Made by a program: the position numbers and the translations under genes
Notes under the pieces: model-generated
What the model saw: only the letters and a program-made list of their open reading frames with translations
Databases searched by the model: none
What the model was told of the DNA's origin: nothing
NCBI RefSeq assembly: GCF_000183745.1
Contig: NC_014761.1
Location: 2,232,001 to 2,296,000, forward strand
Length of the DNA stretch: 64,000 nt
Source: Oceanithermus profundus DSM 14977
Lineage (GTDB): Bacteria; Deinococcota; Deinococci; Deinococcales; Marinithermaceae
Direction: 5' to 3'
Part shown: one piece after another, positions 5,092 to 28,861 of the stretch
Layout of the letters: every line of letters starts with the position of its first letter
How positions within the stretch are numbered: the stretch's first letter is position 1

Positions 5092-5222
5092 GGGGTGCCT
5101 TATGGGTACTTAGTGCGTAGTTCGTGGTACGTGGTAGCGAGGGCTGGCTTGTAGCAAGTGGCTTGTAGCCTGTAGTGGGTCCGTCAGCGGCAAAGGAATT
5201 TCGGCTTCGTTTACAGCATGGA

Positions 5223-5260
5223 CCCCGGATCTCGGCAACCTTCGGTTGCCTCGTCCGGGG
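5223..5260. repeat. Extragenic palindrome, copy 1
   Basis: Lower stem CCCCGGA/TCCGGGG, an internal loop of four and three bases, then upper stem GGCAACC/GGTTGCC around a three-base loop. Same frame as the copy at 5987-6024 but with a different upper stem. Confidence 0.7.
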
Positions 5261-5615
5261 ATACGTTGTTGTTCAAAAAGGAAGCTGATCGTGTCCCCGG
5301 CCAAGCGGGTCGTGTTGACCCACGAGAGCCGGGCCTGCCCTGGACCTGATCCGGGGGCCCATGCCGCGGCAATACCCCGCGGTTTGGTCACCGCACGATG
5401 AAACGCCCTCCCCTTAGAGGGGGTTGGGGAGGAGGTTATTGGCGCTAACGAAGCCATCGCCCATCATTCGAATCGTGGCCAACCCACATCCCACCCCCAA
5501 CACCTTATATCCTCATAAACAACCCCCCACCGGCCTTCGGCCACCTCCCCAAGGGGGAGGTTTTCAAGAGTCGCCATCAGACAAAGCGTAGCGCTCACAA
5601 TGCTTTAAGCTCTGG

Positions 5616-5655
5616 ATTCCAGCTCGTGCAGGTCTACGACCTGCTTGGCTGGAAT
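5616..5655. repeat. Extragenic palindrome, inverted copy
   Basis: Lower stem ATTCCAGC/GCTGGAAT, internal loop of four and three bases, upper stem GCAGGTC/GACCTGC with loop TAC. Its reverse complement aligns with the copy at 5820-5855, including flanking GTCAT and ATCCAG. Confidence 0.65.
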
Positions 5656-5819
5656 GACGAGCTATTCGTAGCAGCAGAAGATTGCGGAGATTTCGCGAAA
5701 TCGGAGCCGGAAAACTTCCGATGGGCAGAACGCCCGTTCGTTCCAAGCCCAACCGCACACTAGTAACTATGTAGCGCGTTACGCTCCGACCTACACTCTA
5801 CGACGGTCTTCCACACGTC

Positions 5820-5855
5820 ATCCCAGGCAAGCGGCGAAGCCGCGCGACCTGGGAT
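5820..5855. repeat. Extragenic palindrome, copy 3
   Basis: Lower stem ATCCCAGG/CCTGGGAT, internal loop of three and four bases, upper stem GCGGC/GCCGC with loop GAA. Flanked by GTC and CCAGA as in the inverted copy at 5616-5655. Confidence 0.65.
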
Positions 5856-5986
5856 CCAGACCGGGTCACCAAGCCGTGACTGGGGATTGCGCCGGCGTTC
5901 TGGAAAAGTGGCTTGTGGTCCGTAGCCTTTGACCTGTGGCAGGCCGGTCTATGACAACGAAACGTTGGCTTCGCGTGCGGCATGGA

Positions 5987-6024
5987 CCCCGGATCTCGGC
6001 GGCGACACGCCGCCTCGTCCGGGG
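5987..6024. repeat. Extragenic palindrome, copy 2
   Basis: Same lower stem and internal loop as copy 1 (38 bases each), but the upper stem is GGCGGCG/CGCCGCC with loop ACA, so both sides of the stem changed together. Confidence 0.7.
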
Positions 6025-6220
6025 ATACGGATAAAAGCGGCTCGTAGCAAGTAACCCGTGGTTCGTGGTGGGTTAGTCAACAACAGCGGAATCTCGGGGT
6101 GCCGTGCAGCATGGACCCCGGATCAAGTCCGAGGCAGGCCCTGAATCAAGCTCAGGGCAGGCTCACGGGCCTCGCCTGCTTCGCGGCTCGTATGGAATGA
6201 CAAAGCGGGGCGCGGCGGCG

Positions 6221-23709: not shown

Positions 23710-23749
23710 CGCCTTTCATCCTACCCAGCGGCATGAGAACACCGCAGGA

Positions 23750-23789
23750 AAACACAAAGGGCCGGGGCGGCCCAAACCGCCCCGGCCCT
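23750..23789 (-). terminator. Rho-independent terminator after the nuclease-lipoprotein gene
   Basis: A perfect 13-bp stem (arms 23758-23770 and 23777-23789) with a six-base loop, followed on the minus strand by TTTGTGTTTT. It lies just after the stop at 23800 and shields the DUF456 operon. Confidence 0.85.
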
Positions 23790-23799
23790 ACCAAAACCG

Positions 23800-26700
23800 T
23801 TAAGGGCTGCCGGCCCCGCGCTGATTGAAACGCATGAAGCCGCCCGGCCATTTCTCAGGACCACGTTGCAGAACGGGCTCAGAAGCACCCAGGGGTTGCA
23901 GCTCGCCCCTCCTCAGCTCGAGCGTTTGTTGATCTGCCGATCCTACAGCCACGTCCCAGGAAGGGTAGCATTCCCATCCAAACACACCCTCGATAAGGTA
24001 AGGAACCAGCGACCCATCCCCTGCGCGATGCAATTCGATGTTTTGCGTCCAATACACGGGCGGCACGCCGTCCACGCCAAAGAAGGTTTCGTCGGAGCGG
24101 AAGAAGGCGTTGCCCTGCCCAATCCTGCAATAGCGAATCTGGTCGGGCGGAATAAACGCGTCGAAATCGTAATTCATGGTCGCAAGCAGGTTGCCCTCGT
24201 CGTCGCGCAGTTCCGCCCCTTCGAAGAAGACCTCGGCGAACGGGTGGAGGGCGAACTGCCAGGCCCGATAATCGAGCGGGATCGCTTGGTCGATATCGCC
24301 CGTCGTGCTTATCTGAACTAGGGCGTTGGCTTCCGTACAAACCTCACCTCCGTTGCCGTCGGGTACGCAGTAGCGGGCACTGTTGTACACGGCGCCAGGG
24401 AACCGGTTGTCATGGATGGTGAACGACAGGGGCGCACTCAATCGCGAAGCCATGCGCTCGACCCTGGTGTATCCTTGCTGGACCTTTGGGTGAACTAAAT
24501 AGAACGAGTTAACTTGGTGAAGGCCTTCGTCAAAGGCGCAGCTGGATGTCCACGAGAAGAAGGGCACTTCGGGAAAGCTCGACCAGTCCCAATCGTTCGC
24601 CTCGTCCGGGCGGTGCAGGTCGTGCACCCCCACCCAGGGAAACCGGTGGGACGTGTAGTTTGCATGCTCAACGATGAAATCAAACAGGGGTTCGTCGTAC
24701 TTTGTTTCGATGTAGTTACCTTCGCCGTCGTACACATCGTAGGCGTACATTTCACGTAGATGGTCGGCCCCGCGCACGGTGACGGTTCCGGTGATGCGCC
24801 CGCAGCGCTTTTCGGGCTCGACGTTCGGTAGGCCGCCGTTATAGCTTTCCGGCTCGAAACGAACGTCCAGCTCGGCGCACATTAGCCGCACCGGAACCTC
24901 GAACTCCAGCTCGGGGTTTTGTGTGCGCACCCTGATCTTTCCTTCCTTTTCCACCGCGCCGTCGCAAAAAGCTTGGGCGGATTCCACATCGATCACCTCA
25001 GTGAACCGCTGCCCGGGTTGGAGGGTGCCCGCCGCCGGCTCCAGGCGCAACCAGTCGGGCAGGACCAGCTCGTAGGTCATGCCGCTCTCCTGATCGTCCG
25101 GGTAAGGGTCGGGCAAACCCACGAAGTCGAAGTCGCCTTCGGGCACCGCACCCCAGCCCGCATCGGCGGCGAGCAGGTAGTTGATGGTGCACTGCCCGGG
25201 TTCCGCCAGCTCCACGAATACGTATTTTTCGTTGTTCTTGACCTCCGCCACCCGGCACCGGCTCAGGTCGCCCTCGGGGCAGACGAAAACTACCGGCGGC
25301 GTGGATGAGCTGGACGGGATCAGCGCGTTCGGGATAAAAACGCTGGGAATCTCGACCGCATACGTGAAGTCGTCGACCTTTTCGAAGCCGTACCAGGTGG
25401 AAGCCTCGGTGGAGGCCACCTCGAAGAGCGACGCGTCGAACCGGTAGGGTTTTCCGGGGTCGAACTTTGCCGTGAGCCCCATGCCGGCAACGAAGAGCCT
25501 TGTACCCTTGGTAAAGCTCGTGGGGATGCCGCATGTTGTTGGGACGACGTTGACCGAGCTGGTTCCAAAGTCGCGAAGCTCGCAAATAAGAGCGTTGTGG
25601 TCCATTCCAGTTAGATTTCCAGGGGAAACGGTTTTGGAGGGCCTGCCGGTGCGCGGGTCTTTGGCGTAGGCACATGATCCGTAAAATCTGTTGGACAGCG
25701 GGAAGTCGATCATGCCGTGCAACACCAGGCCGCCGGTAACTAGAAAGTCGGAGGTGGCCATGTGCAGGATGCTTGGCTTTTTCCCCTCCGCCACCTGGCT
25801 GTCCACCAGAAGCGACGGGTAGGCGTCTAGGTCATGGTCGTCGTACCACGTCGTGCCCCCAATGTCGGGGGTGTTGATTAGGGCAACCTGATCGCTGATC
25901 GCCAGATCGTCGGGTTCGGGCCGGCCCTCATGTTTCTGGCAATCGATGCACAGGTTGTGATCGCCGATCACCAGTACGCTTGCGCTTCCATTAGAGCTCC
26001 GCAGGCCGCGCAACCTGTCCGTTAGCTCGTTGATCTGCCGGGCGCGCACGAGGTTGTTCGACGCACTCGAGGGGCTGGCCAGGTGGGCGTTGTAGAGGTC
26101 CAGGGCAAACCCGTCGACGCTGCTGAGAAGCTGGGTGTACAGGTAACCCGTGTCGGCCGCTCCGCCGGTCAGGTATTGGCGCTTGTCAGGGTCGGCAAAG
26201 GTGAAAGCGGCGGTGTTGACGATGGTGCATTCGTACTGCTCGCAGTAGTAGTCGAGTTGCACCGACGGATCAAGCCTCTCCCACTCGGCGAGAATCGTGT
26301 TGATGACACGAGGTTCAACTGGCGCAAACCCGTTGTCAATTTCACAAAAATCCCCCACCCTTTTGTCCTTGTTAGGTGGTGGCCTGGCGCAGTAGGTGTC
26401 CTCGACCATCATTTCTTGGAAAGTAACGATCCCCGGTTGATTCACATAGAGCCGCCGAATGATCTTTCGGATGGTGTTTTCACTGCAGAGCTTATAAAAA
26501 CATTGTTTCGTCCTTTGTCCAACGTTCCAGGTCAACACACGTAGGCTTCTACCTCCCTGCGGTTCAACGCGCTCACCAAAAGAAAGTTTTGTCTCTTCCG
26601 GGGCCTTGAGCTCCCCGATCTGAGAAACGGTGCCGCCGGGGCGGCCGCGGCAGGCCCCGCTGAAGCTGTGGAAGTCGATGGCGGGAATGTTGGGGTTGAT

Positions 26701-27354
26701 CCGGCCTCCGGCCTCGACGCAGTTTTGGTTGGCCCACACCTTGGGGAACTGGAAGACGTAGTAGTTCTGGTGGCGGCTGTCGAGGCCGGTGATCTGCACC
26801 TCGATGTAGCCCTGCCCTTTTTCTTCCGTGCCGGGGCCGATGTCGGAGAGGTGGCAGAACCAGTAGTTCTTATCGCCTACGCTGTCGCCTTCTTCCCCTA
26901 TCCAGCTGCAGACCTCGGTGTAGTGGGTGCTGTTCTTGGCGGGGGCGACGGCTTGCTTCAGGGAGAGGCGCAGGGTGGCGGGGTAGATCAGCAGGTTCTG
27001 GAGCTCGGCGTTCTCCCCGGTGAAGGGGTTGTGGCGCCAGACCTCGGCAGCGGCGATCAGGGTGGCTTCGGGGGGGACAGGGCCGGGGGCGTCCAGGGGC
27101 AGGTCCTTGAGCGTGATCTTTGCGGGGCGGTCCCCGTAGACGGCGTTTTCGGGAATGGCCAGCTCGGCGTTTTCCGTTCGGATCGTCCCGCCGCCCCTGC
27201 CGATCTCCACCGTGGTTTCGGGAGCGGGTGGAGACGCTCCGCCTCCGGGAGGGTTGGGGTTGCCGGGCGGGCTCTGGCCGGGTTTGGGGCCGCAGGCGGC
27301 AAGCATGATAAGCAATAGTGCAGCCAATAGGGATGCGGATTTGACATTTCTCAT
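23800..27354 (-). CDS. Large lipoprotein with endonuclease/exonuclease/phosphatase domain
   Basis: 1184 residues. Signal and lipobox LLLIMLAACG give a lipidated Cys21. A ZU5-like region (GGGTIRTENAELAIPENAVYGD, about 48-75) is followed by a beta-rich module (about 89-254) that is encoded by DNA identical to part of the next gene. An EEP fold spans about 270-595: LRVLTWNVGQ (Asn277), FQEMM (metal Glu, about 312), VIGDHNLC (about 463) and MDHNALIC (catalytic His). The C-terminal half is Cys-containing and unrecognised. It could be a surface nuclease or phosphodiesterase. Start at 27354 preferred over 27405 because the signal peptide begins there. Base composition is lower in GC than the core genes, suggesting acquisition. 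Confidence 0.75.
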   Translation of the reverse strand: MRNVKSASLLAALLLIMLAACGPKPGQSPPGNPNPPGGGASPPAPETTVEIGRGGGTIRTENAELAIPENAVYGDRPAKITLKDLPLDAPGPVPPEATLIAAAEVWRHNPFTGENAELQNLLIYPATLRLSLKQAVAPAKNSTHYTEVCSWIGEEGDSVGDKNYWFCHLSDIGPGTEEKGQGYIEVQITGLDSRHQNYYVFQFPKVWANQNCVEAGGRINPNIPAIDFHSFSGACRGRPGGTVSQIGELKAPEETKLSFGERVEPQGGRSLRVLTWNVGQRTKQCFYKLCSENTIRKIIRRLYVNQPGIVTFQEMMVEDTYCARPPPNKDKRVGDFCEIDNGFAPVEPRVINTILAEWERLDPSVQLDYYCEQYECTIVNTAAFTFADPDKRQYLTGGAADTGYLYTQLLSSVDGFALDLYNAHLASPSSASNNLVRARQINELTDRLRGLRSSNGSASVLVIGDHNLCIDCQKHEGRPEPDDLAISDQVALINTPDIGGTTWYDDHDLDAYPSLLVDSQVAEGKKPSILHMATSDFLVTGGLVLHGMIDFPLSNRFYGSCAYAKDPRTGRPSKTVSPGNLTGMDHNALICELRDFGTSSVNVVPTTCGIPTSFTKGTRLFVAGMGLTAKFDPGKPYRFDASLFEVASTEASTWYGFEKVDDFTYAVEIPSVFIPNALIPSSSSTPPVVFVCPEGDLSRCRVAEVKNNEKYVFVELAEPGQCTINYLLAADAGWGAVPEGDFDFVGLPDPYPDDQESGMTYELVLPDWLRLEPAAGTLQPGQRFTEVIDVESAQAFCDGAVEKEGKIRVRTQNPELEFEVPVRLMCAELDVRFEPESYNGGLPNVEPEKRCGRITGTVTVRGADHLREMYAYDVYDGEGNYIETKYDEPLFDFIVEHANYTSHRFPWVGVHDLHRPDEANDWDWSSFPEVPFFSWTSSCAFDEGLHQVNSFYLVHPKVQQGYTRVERMASRLSAPLSFTIHDNRFPGAVYNSARYCVPDGNGGEVCTEANALVQISTTGDIDQAIPLDYRAWQFALHPFAEVFFEGAELRDDEGNLLATMNYDFDAFIPPDQIRYCRIGQGNAFFRSDETFFGVDGVPPVYWTQNIELHRAGDGSLVPYLIEGVFGWECYPSWDVAVGSADQQTLELRRGELQPLGASEPVLQRGPEKWPGGFMRFNQRGAGSP
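26593..27091 (-). repeat. 499-bp perfect duplication, copy A
   Basis: Identical base for base, by eye, to 27513-28011 (offset 920). It encodes about residues 89-254 of the nuclease lipoprotein. The flanks are unrelated on both sides. Confidence 0.95.
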
Positions 27355-27443
27355 AGCATCACCCCAAAGGTGCTTTTTGCGGCTTGATGCAGTATGCTTT
27401 CTCATTGTGCGGTAGAATTAAGGAATAGTAGCCGCTTGGAGGG

Positions 27444-27449
27444 ATTATA
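27444..27449 (-). promoter_or_regulatory. Extended -10 box upstream of the nuclease lipoprotein
   Basis: CATGCTATAAT on the minus strand: consensus TATAAT with a TG extension, about 90 bases before the start codon. The same CATGCTATAAT..CTCCAAGC text precedes the neighbouring gene at 28737. Confidence 0.6.
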
Positions 27450-27470
27450 GCATGGCCACTCCGGTCGGGG

Positions 27471-28649
27471 CTACGGGCTCTCGGGTTCCACTGGGCGGGT
27501 GAGGGGGACGAGCTCTTCCGGGGCCTTGAGCTCCCCGATCTGAGAAACGGTGCCGCCGGGGCGGCCGCGGCAGGCCCCGCTGAAGCTGTGGAAGTCGATG
27601 GCGGGAATGTTGGGGTTGATCCGGCCTCCGGCCTCGACGCAGTTTTGGTTGGCCCACACCTTGGGGAACTGGAAGACGTAGTAGTTCTGGTGGCGGCTGT
27701 CGAGGCCGGTGATCTGCACCTCGATGTAGCCCTGCCCTTTTTCTTCCGTGCCGGGGCCGATGTCGGAGAGGTGGCAGAACCAGTAGTTCTTATCGCCTAC
27801 GCTGTCGCCTTCTTCCCCTATCCAGCTGCAGACCTCGGTGTAGTGGGTGCTGTTCTTGGCGGGGGCGACGGCTTGCTTCAGGGAGAGGCGCAGGGTGGCG
27901 GGGTAGATCAGCAGGTTCTGGAGCTCGGCGTTCTCCCCGGTGAAGGGGTTGTGGCGCCAGACCTCGGCAGCGGCGATCAGGGTGGCTTCGGGGGGGACAG
28001 GGCCGGGGGCGGGAAGAGTATGGGGGATGGAGCGGAGGGTGACGAGGGCGGGCAGGGGCGGGAGGAGGCCGCCGGCGGGGATGCAGAGGGTGGCCATCCG
28101 GTCGGGGGTGGTGAGGCAGCCGCCCAGGGAGGGGAGGAAGAGCTTGGTGGCGGTGGGAATCAGGGCTTTCTGTTTGGGGTTACCGGAGGCGTGAACGCTG
28201 GGGTAGGGCAGGCCGGGGAGGTAGTAGAGGGCGAGGGCCAGGGCGGCGGTGTACAGGTAGGGGCGCAGCTCGGGACGGAAACGGGGCCGAGGCGGGCCGG
28301 GGTCGGCATGGGAGGCTTGGGGAGATCGCGAGGTTTGGACGCTGCGGTAGAGGACGCGGACCGGGTGCAGCCCAGCGGCGAACAGGAGGTGCAGCGCGGC
28401 TAGGGCGAGCAGGGGAAGGACGAGGAAGAAGGCGAAGCGGAGGTGGCCCAGGAGAACGGCGAGGGGGAGGGGAAGGGCGGGGTCGGCGAGAGGGGTGGGG
28501 ACGAGGGCGGGGAGAGTGGAGCCAAGACGGTTGGAAAGGCCGGAAAGGTCGGCGTAGTTGAAGACGAGGGCGTAGAAGAGAAGGAAGGTCAGGTAGAGGA
28601 GAAAGAGGAGGAGGGTAGGCCAGAGGAGGCGGGTCTTGCCAGGTCTCAT
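27471..28649 (-). CDS. Membrane protein sharing an identical module with the adjacent lipoprotein
   Basis: 392 residues. The N-terminal 210 have three or four hydrophobic segments (about 8-30, 60-90, 128-147) and Pro-rich linkers and resemble nothing I know. Residues about 214-379 are identical to about 89-254 of the lipoprotein at 23.8-27.4 kb; only 13 residues follow. The shared module has ENAELQNLLIYPATLRLSL, CSWIGEEG, and CVEAGGR. ATG at 28649 with AAGGA. It looks like a membrane-anchored version of the lipoprotein's extracellular domain, either a real paralogue homogenised by gene conversion or a chimera from recombination that lost its own C-terminus. Confidence 0.65.
   Translation of the reverse strand: MRPGKTRLLWPTLLLFLLYLTFLLFYALVFNYADLSGLSNRLGSTLPALVPTPLADPALPLPLAVLLGHLRFAFFLVLPLLALAALHLLFAAGLHPVRVLYRSVQTSRSPQASHADPGPPRPRFRPELRPYLYTAALALALYYLPGLPYPSVHASGNPKQKALIPTATKLFLPSLGGCLTTPDRMATLCIPAGGLLPPLPALVTLRSIPHTLPAPGPVPPEATLIAAAEVWRHNPFTGENAELQNLLIYPATLRLSLKQAVAPAKNSTHYTEVCSWIGEEGDSVGDKNYWFCHLSDIGPGTEEKGQGYIEVQITGLDSRHQNYYVFQFPKVWANQNCVEAGGRINPNIPAIDFHSFSGACRGRPGGTVSQIGELKAPEELVPLTRPVEPESP
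27513..28011 (-). repeat. 499-bp perfect duplication, copy B
   Basis: Second copy of 26593-27091 within the membrane-protein gene, same strand and same reading phase. Confidence 0.95.
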
Positions 28650-28736
28650 GGTTTCCTTCAGTGCTCATGGCGGCAGCCTCGGCAAACGGGGTTCACATAG
28701 GGTGGCTACGAAGAGCGGGGTGGGCTGCTTGGAGAA

Positions 28737-28742
28737 ATTATA
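28737..28742 (-). promoter_or_regulatory. Extended -10 box upstream of the module-sharing membrane protein
   Basis: CATGCTATAAT again, about 88 bases before the ATG at 28649, mirroring the box at 27444. Confidence 0.6.
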
Positions 28743-28861
28743 GCATGGAAGGCTGGGGTAGCGCGGGTGAACTCCCGTGCACCCCGCACGCGATGGGCGG
28801 CGTGCGGCCGCGCACGAGGCGTAGTAGGCTGATCGAGAGGCTGACCCACGGGTCAAACACC

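Follow-up and report, generated by a model that had tools for sequence, protein, structure and literature searches.

The analysed window, a 64-kb stretch of the Oceanithermus profundus DSM 14977 genome, contains two neighbouring genes on the minus strand, referred to here as P1 and P2. P1 (23800–27354) encodes a 1184-aa lipoprotein in which the lipobox (LAAC) is followed by a ZU5/GAIN-like module, an EEP-like region and a C-terminus common to Amidase_3-like proteins of relatives. P2 (27471–28649) encodes a 392-aa protein with a hydrophobic N-terminal membrane region and a C-terminal module, a plan also found in relatives (L031, L032 and L037). The modules of both proteins probably face outside the cytoplasm.

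The EEP (DNase-I-like) catalytic motif set comprises N, E, H, GDxN and DH. All of these motifs were present in P1 residues 258–640, with N20, E57, H167, D208–N210 and D328–H329 invariant in an alignment of three homologues (A2). The lipoprotein had earlier been called a nuclease; its DNase-I-like motif set is indeed complete, but the region gave no match in Pfam, NCBIfam or PDB sequences, and the label is therefore one of motifs. AF2 gave no usable model of the region (pLDDT 35.5). A PADLOC search returned no match to a defence family. P1 may be a lipoprotein of the cell surface or periplasm whose DNase-I-like (EEP) region is a hydrolase.

Positions 26593–27091 and 27513–28011 (both minus strand) are identical over 499 bp, with an offset of 920 and 0 mismatches. 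The tract covers codons 88–253 of P1 and begins at codon 213 of P2; its reading phase is identical in the two genes, which bears out the claim of the earlier note that a perfect 499-bp module is shared in phase by two neighbouring proteins. A match of this length is far beyond chance, and no second direct repeat of about 499 bp was found in the 64-kb window. Directly outside the tract, DNA identity at offset 920 was 20–41% per 100 bp at both edges, which is the background level. The two copies are therefore more alike within a bounded tract (100% over 499 bp) than outside it.

The domain to which the tract belongs starts about 45 residues before it in both P1 and P2. These N-terminal flanks (27092–27225 in P1 and 28012–28169 in P2, both minus strand) had no detectable similarity at the DNA level. 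As proteins, they aligned with a local score of 49, a value reached by 0/5000 shuffles, the best of which scored 44. Homology of the P1 flank was clear to P2 only and weak to other relatives, and the P2 flank was 34–36% identical to the same part of membrane-type relatives. On the C-terminal side, past the tract, neither DNA similarity nor homology between P1 and P2 was found; paralogy beyond the tract was thus detected on the N-terminal side and not on the C-terminal side. The earlier description of the flanks as unrelated holds for their DNA but fails for the N-terminal side at the protein level. The tract edges are sharp because the sequence beyond them had diverged long before. Rather than being a freshly shuffled module, the tract represents a homogenised patch within a domain that the two genes have shared for longer.

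The AF2 model of the P1 module, which includes the N-terminal flank, had a mean pLDDT of 80, with strands in the flank at pLDDT 86–94. According to Foldseek, its best PDB matches were the GAIN domain of CD97 and ankyrin-G, with a probability of 1.00. The predicted beta fold is similar to that of ZU5/GAIN domains, but the TM-score was only 0.40–0.43 at 15% identity, and the module gave no match in Pfam and no sequence-profile match. We therefore call the modelled module ZU5/GAIN-like with caution, the likeness being one of predicted fold. The HLS of P1 and P2 was not conserved across the module family. A literature search on ZU5/GAIN domains in bacteria found no paper joining these subjects.

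CCATGCTATAATNNCTCCAAGCNGC precedes both P1 and P2, and a genome search allowing up to 3 mismatches found the 21-base core of this element at no other site. The 25-bp element, which carries an extended −10 motif (TGCTATAAT), lies at 27431–27455 before P1 and at 28724–28748 before P2 (minus strand), so that the extended −10 similarity reported earlier is real and longer than claimed. A common element of 25 bp is consistent with descent of the 5′ regions from one ancestor or with another small conversion event. The 5.1-kb block containing P1 and P2 (about 23718–28840) is absent between the same neighbours in relatives: its left and right neighbours are adjacent in four of them (G001, G002, G003 and G005), and in two others (G004 and G007) the left-hand homology also ends at the edge of the block. 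Elsewhere in the window, at 5145–6129, a 92-bp sequence that includes GGACCCCGGATC is present as three diverged direct copies (68–71% to the reference).

A second locus with members of the same family lies 1.05 Mb from the window locus in the same genome (G000:C2, about 1.2074–1.2121 Mb). It comprises a lipoprotein gene, the module-only ORF1, the lipoprotein-module-EEP gene ORF2 and a third module gene, ORF3. The modules of ORF1 and ORF2 are identical at 593/597 bp, leaving four base differences, and their flanks are diverged (L028:3406–6348; G000:C2 about 1208405–1211347). The downstream module of ORF3 is only 69% identical to those of ORF1 and ORF2. Here the family shows an event of the same type as in the window and independent of it.

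Modules in relatives also showed mosaic structure. A module fragment in G003 combines ORF1/2-like and ORF3-like parts (permutation p = 0.0005), and a module in G004 matches ORF1 at 98.4% identity over 245 bp, with identity falling to 84% beyond that point (p = 0.001). Within the phylum, members of the module family were detected in 8 of 111 genomes, namely six Oceanithermus genomes, one of the same family and one with a weak partial match elsewhere in the order; of two scans of further genome contigs, one gave no match and the other matches in Thermaceae MAGs only, which appear to be drafts already among the relatives examined. The protein family is apparently undescribed and nearly restricted to Oceanithermus.

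In G001 and G002, genes of the P2 plan that encode their own complete module adjoin dnaE, and one more such gene was found in G009. In O. profundus and in G003, the dnaE-adjacent P2-type gene is a shortened remnant. The O. profundus remnant is truncated and frameshifted (L082:1543–1880; G000:C2 about 1875042–1875379), and the G003 remnant (L083) ends at nearly the same domain position.

Contig breaks within modules of the draft relatives (5 of 11, expected 1.1, P = 0.0014) were considered as a sign of repeated modules elsewhere and kept only as weak support: the G001 contig across the gap ends in transposase-like sequence, and several of the drafts are MAGs. No second copy of the start of G004:C54 was found in G004. 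Beside the module cluster site of G001, contig C6 ends (L092) in an apparent transposase gene, which might explain the assembly gap.

Recent gene conversion between the neighbouring paralogues P1 and P2 is the best explanation of the tract, with a probability of about 0.8. It is supported by the perfect tract, the older domain shared on the N-terminal side, the second homogenised pair and the mosaic modules in relatives. A gene conversion caught very recently had also been proposed in the earlier note, and the perfect tract with background identity outside it agrees with that proposal. P1 and P2 are adjacent paralogues with one common ZU5/GAIN-like domain and with different anchors and C-termini, between which non-reciprocal recombination would have copied about 499 bp of the domain. 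The membrane protein P2 would probably be the donor and the lipoprotein P1 the recipient, and the process was presumably ordinary homologous recombination. Polyploidy as in Thermus thermophilus was considered as a conversion engine and dropped; the study concerned excluded gene conversion as the cause of what it had observed (PMC6469415). The module may serve in binding or packing and tolerate being exchanged between paralogues.

Transfer from P2 to P1 appears likely from sequence affinity and composition. The tract was 35–41% identical to membrane-type modules versus 21–25% to EEP-type modules. Outside the tract, P2 keeps 34–36% identity to membrane-type relatives, whereas P1 drops to 22–28%. 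The GC3 of the tract (0.89) fits P2 (0.85, p = 0.23) and not P1 (0.73, p = 2.5e-6). Tract affinity and GC3 thus favour P2 as the donor, an argument weakened by the high GC3 of the P1 N-terminal flank itself (0.84 over 44 codons). With 0 differences in 499 bp, divergence since the event is bounded at about 0.6% (95%); flanking sequence diverges from the nearest relatives, G001 and G002, by about 4–9%. The comparison covered one genome of the species and relatives that are without the gene pair at this site, and no pre-conversion allele was seen among them.

A selective cause may be added to gene conversion if the module mediates recognition between the EEP-like lipoprotein and its neighbour, so that selection keeps the modules identical and conversion re-matches them. 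The two readings are not exclusive, and the confidences placed in the rivals therefore overlap. At two unconnected loci, a module protein lies upstream of a lipoprotein-module-EEP gene and both modules are homogenised, while the third, downstream module at the second locus has stayed at 69% identity. However, there are two cases only, plain proximity explains both, and no defence family was matched; we consider such recognition unlikely. It would imply a surface system almost confined to the genus, whose EEP-type lipoprotein would have to share one ZU5/GAIN-like module with its neighbour, either a module-only or a membrane protein, and conversion would re-match the two again and again. This broader proposal is likewise unlikely.

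Recent domain shuffling, in which a module of 166 residues was inserted into a gene without such a domain, had been suggested by the earlier note and is quite unlikely. In its favour, the edges of the tract are sharp at the DNA level and P1 is mosaic elsewhere. Its C-terminal region (about residues 716–1138) sits on an Amidase_3-like lipoprotein in relatives, other Thermaceae (L029:5632–8850 and L030:3126–6161), whose Amidase_3 match (E = 0.017) is below the cutoff for that family; P1 is thus a mosaic at a deeper level too. For the tract itself, however, both genes already had the domain. It reaches about 45 residues past the tract in each protein, a lipoprotein-module-EEP paralogue exists at the second locus, and the membrane-type plan occurs in relatives with a module of its own.

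An assembly artefact would mean that co-assembly of short 454 and Illumina reads across the repeat produced one copy of the tract or its perfect identity. Such reads are short relative to a 499-bp repeat, and a few true differences could have been smoothed out (PMC3111992). The genome, analysed here at 2,439,291 bp in total, nevertheless agrees in size and replicons (contig C2, 2,303,940 bp) with the finished DSM 14977 genome (2,303,940 + 135,351 bp), which was obtained from 454 and Illumina data at 282.8x coverage with 17-kb paired ends and a repeat-finishing step (PMC3111992). Both copies belong to complete, in-frame genes whose plan is known in the family, and the similar second pair retains four differences. 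An invented copy of the tract is unlikely, and an artefact of either kind was judged very improbable overall.

Least probable is a programmed or phase-variable system that moves the module between two anchors, as had also been suggested. A crossover between the direct repeats would remove 920 bp and yield an in-frame 1310-aa fusion of the P2 anchor and the P1 C-terminus, and modules do recombine repeatedly within the genus. The deletion would be irreversible, however, and among the family members detected in O. profundus and its relatives there was no such fused or switched form and no silent array of donor cassettes.

Gene conversion as a mechanism is already known, and here the same kind of event is seen at a second, unconnected locus. 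In the release factors RF1 and RF2, conversion is confined to domain 3 (PMC4530459). As with P1 and P2, these are paralogous bacterial genes in which conversion was limited to one shared domain, functionally different parts were spared and direction was inferred from sequence affinity (PMC4530459). The RF1–RF2 events are old and concern essential genes, whereas the P1–P2 tract retains full identity, and its two genes lie side by side and occur almost only in one genus. Conversion among related genes, including a duplicated pair, is likewise described in the available text on PE_PGRS and other repeat families of Mycobacterium tuberculosis (PMC1762029, PMC12046097). As presented there, PE_PGRS is a large repetitive family of a pathogen, in contrast to the handful of copies in a vent bacterium.

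The P1–P2 tract represents a clear and very fresh case of gene conversion restricted to a single domain of adjacent bacterial proteins that otherwise differ, and the genome provides an independent replicate. The case serves as a warning that identity of this module tells little about shared function or recent duplication of whole genes. The pair offers a tractable system for measuring ectopic conversion in Thermaceae, and it points to a family of Oceanithermus surface proteins that appears to be undescribed.
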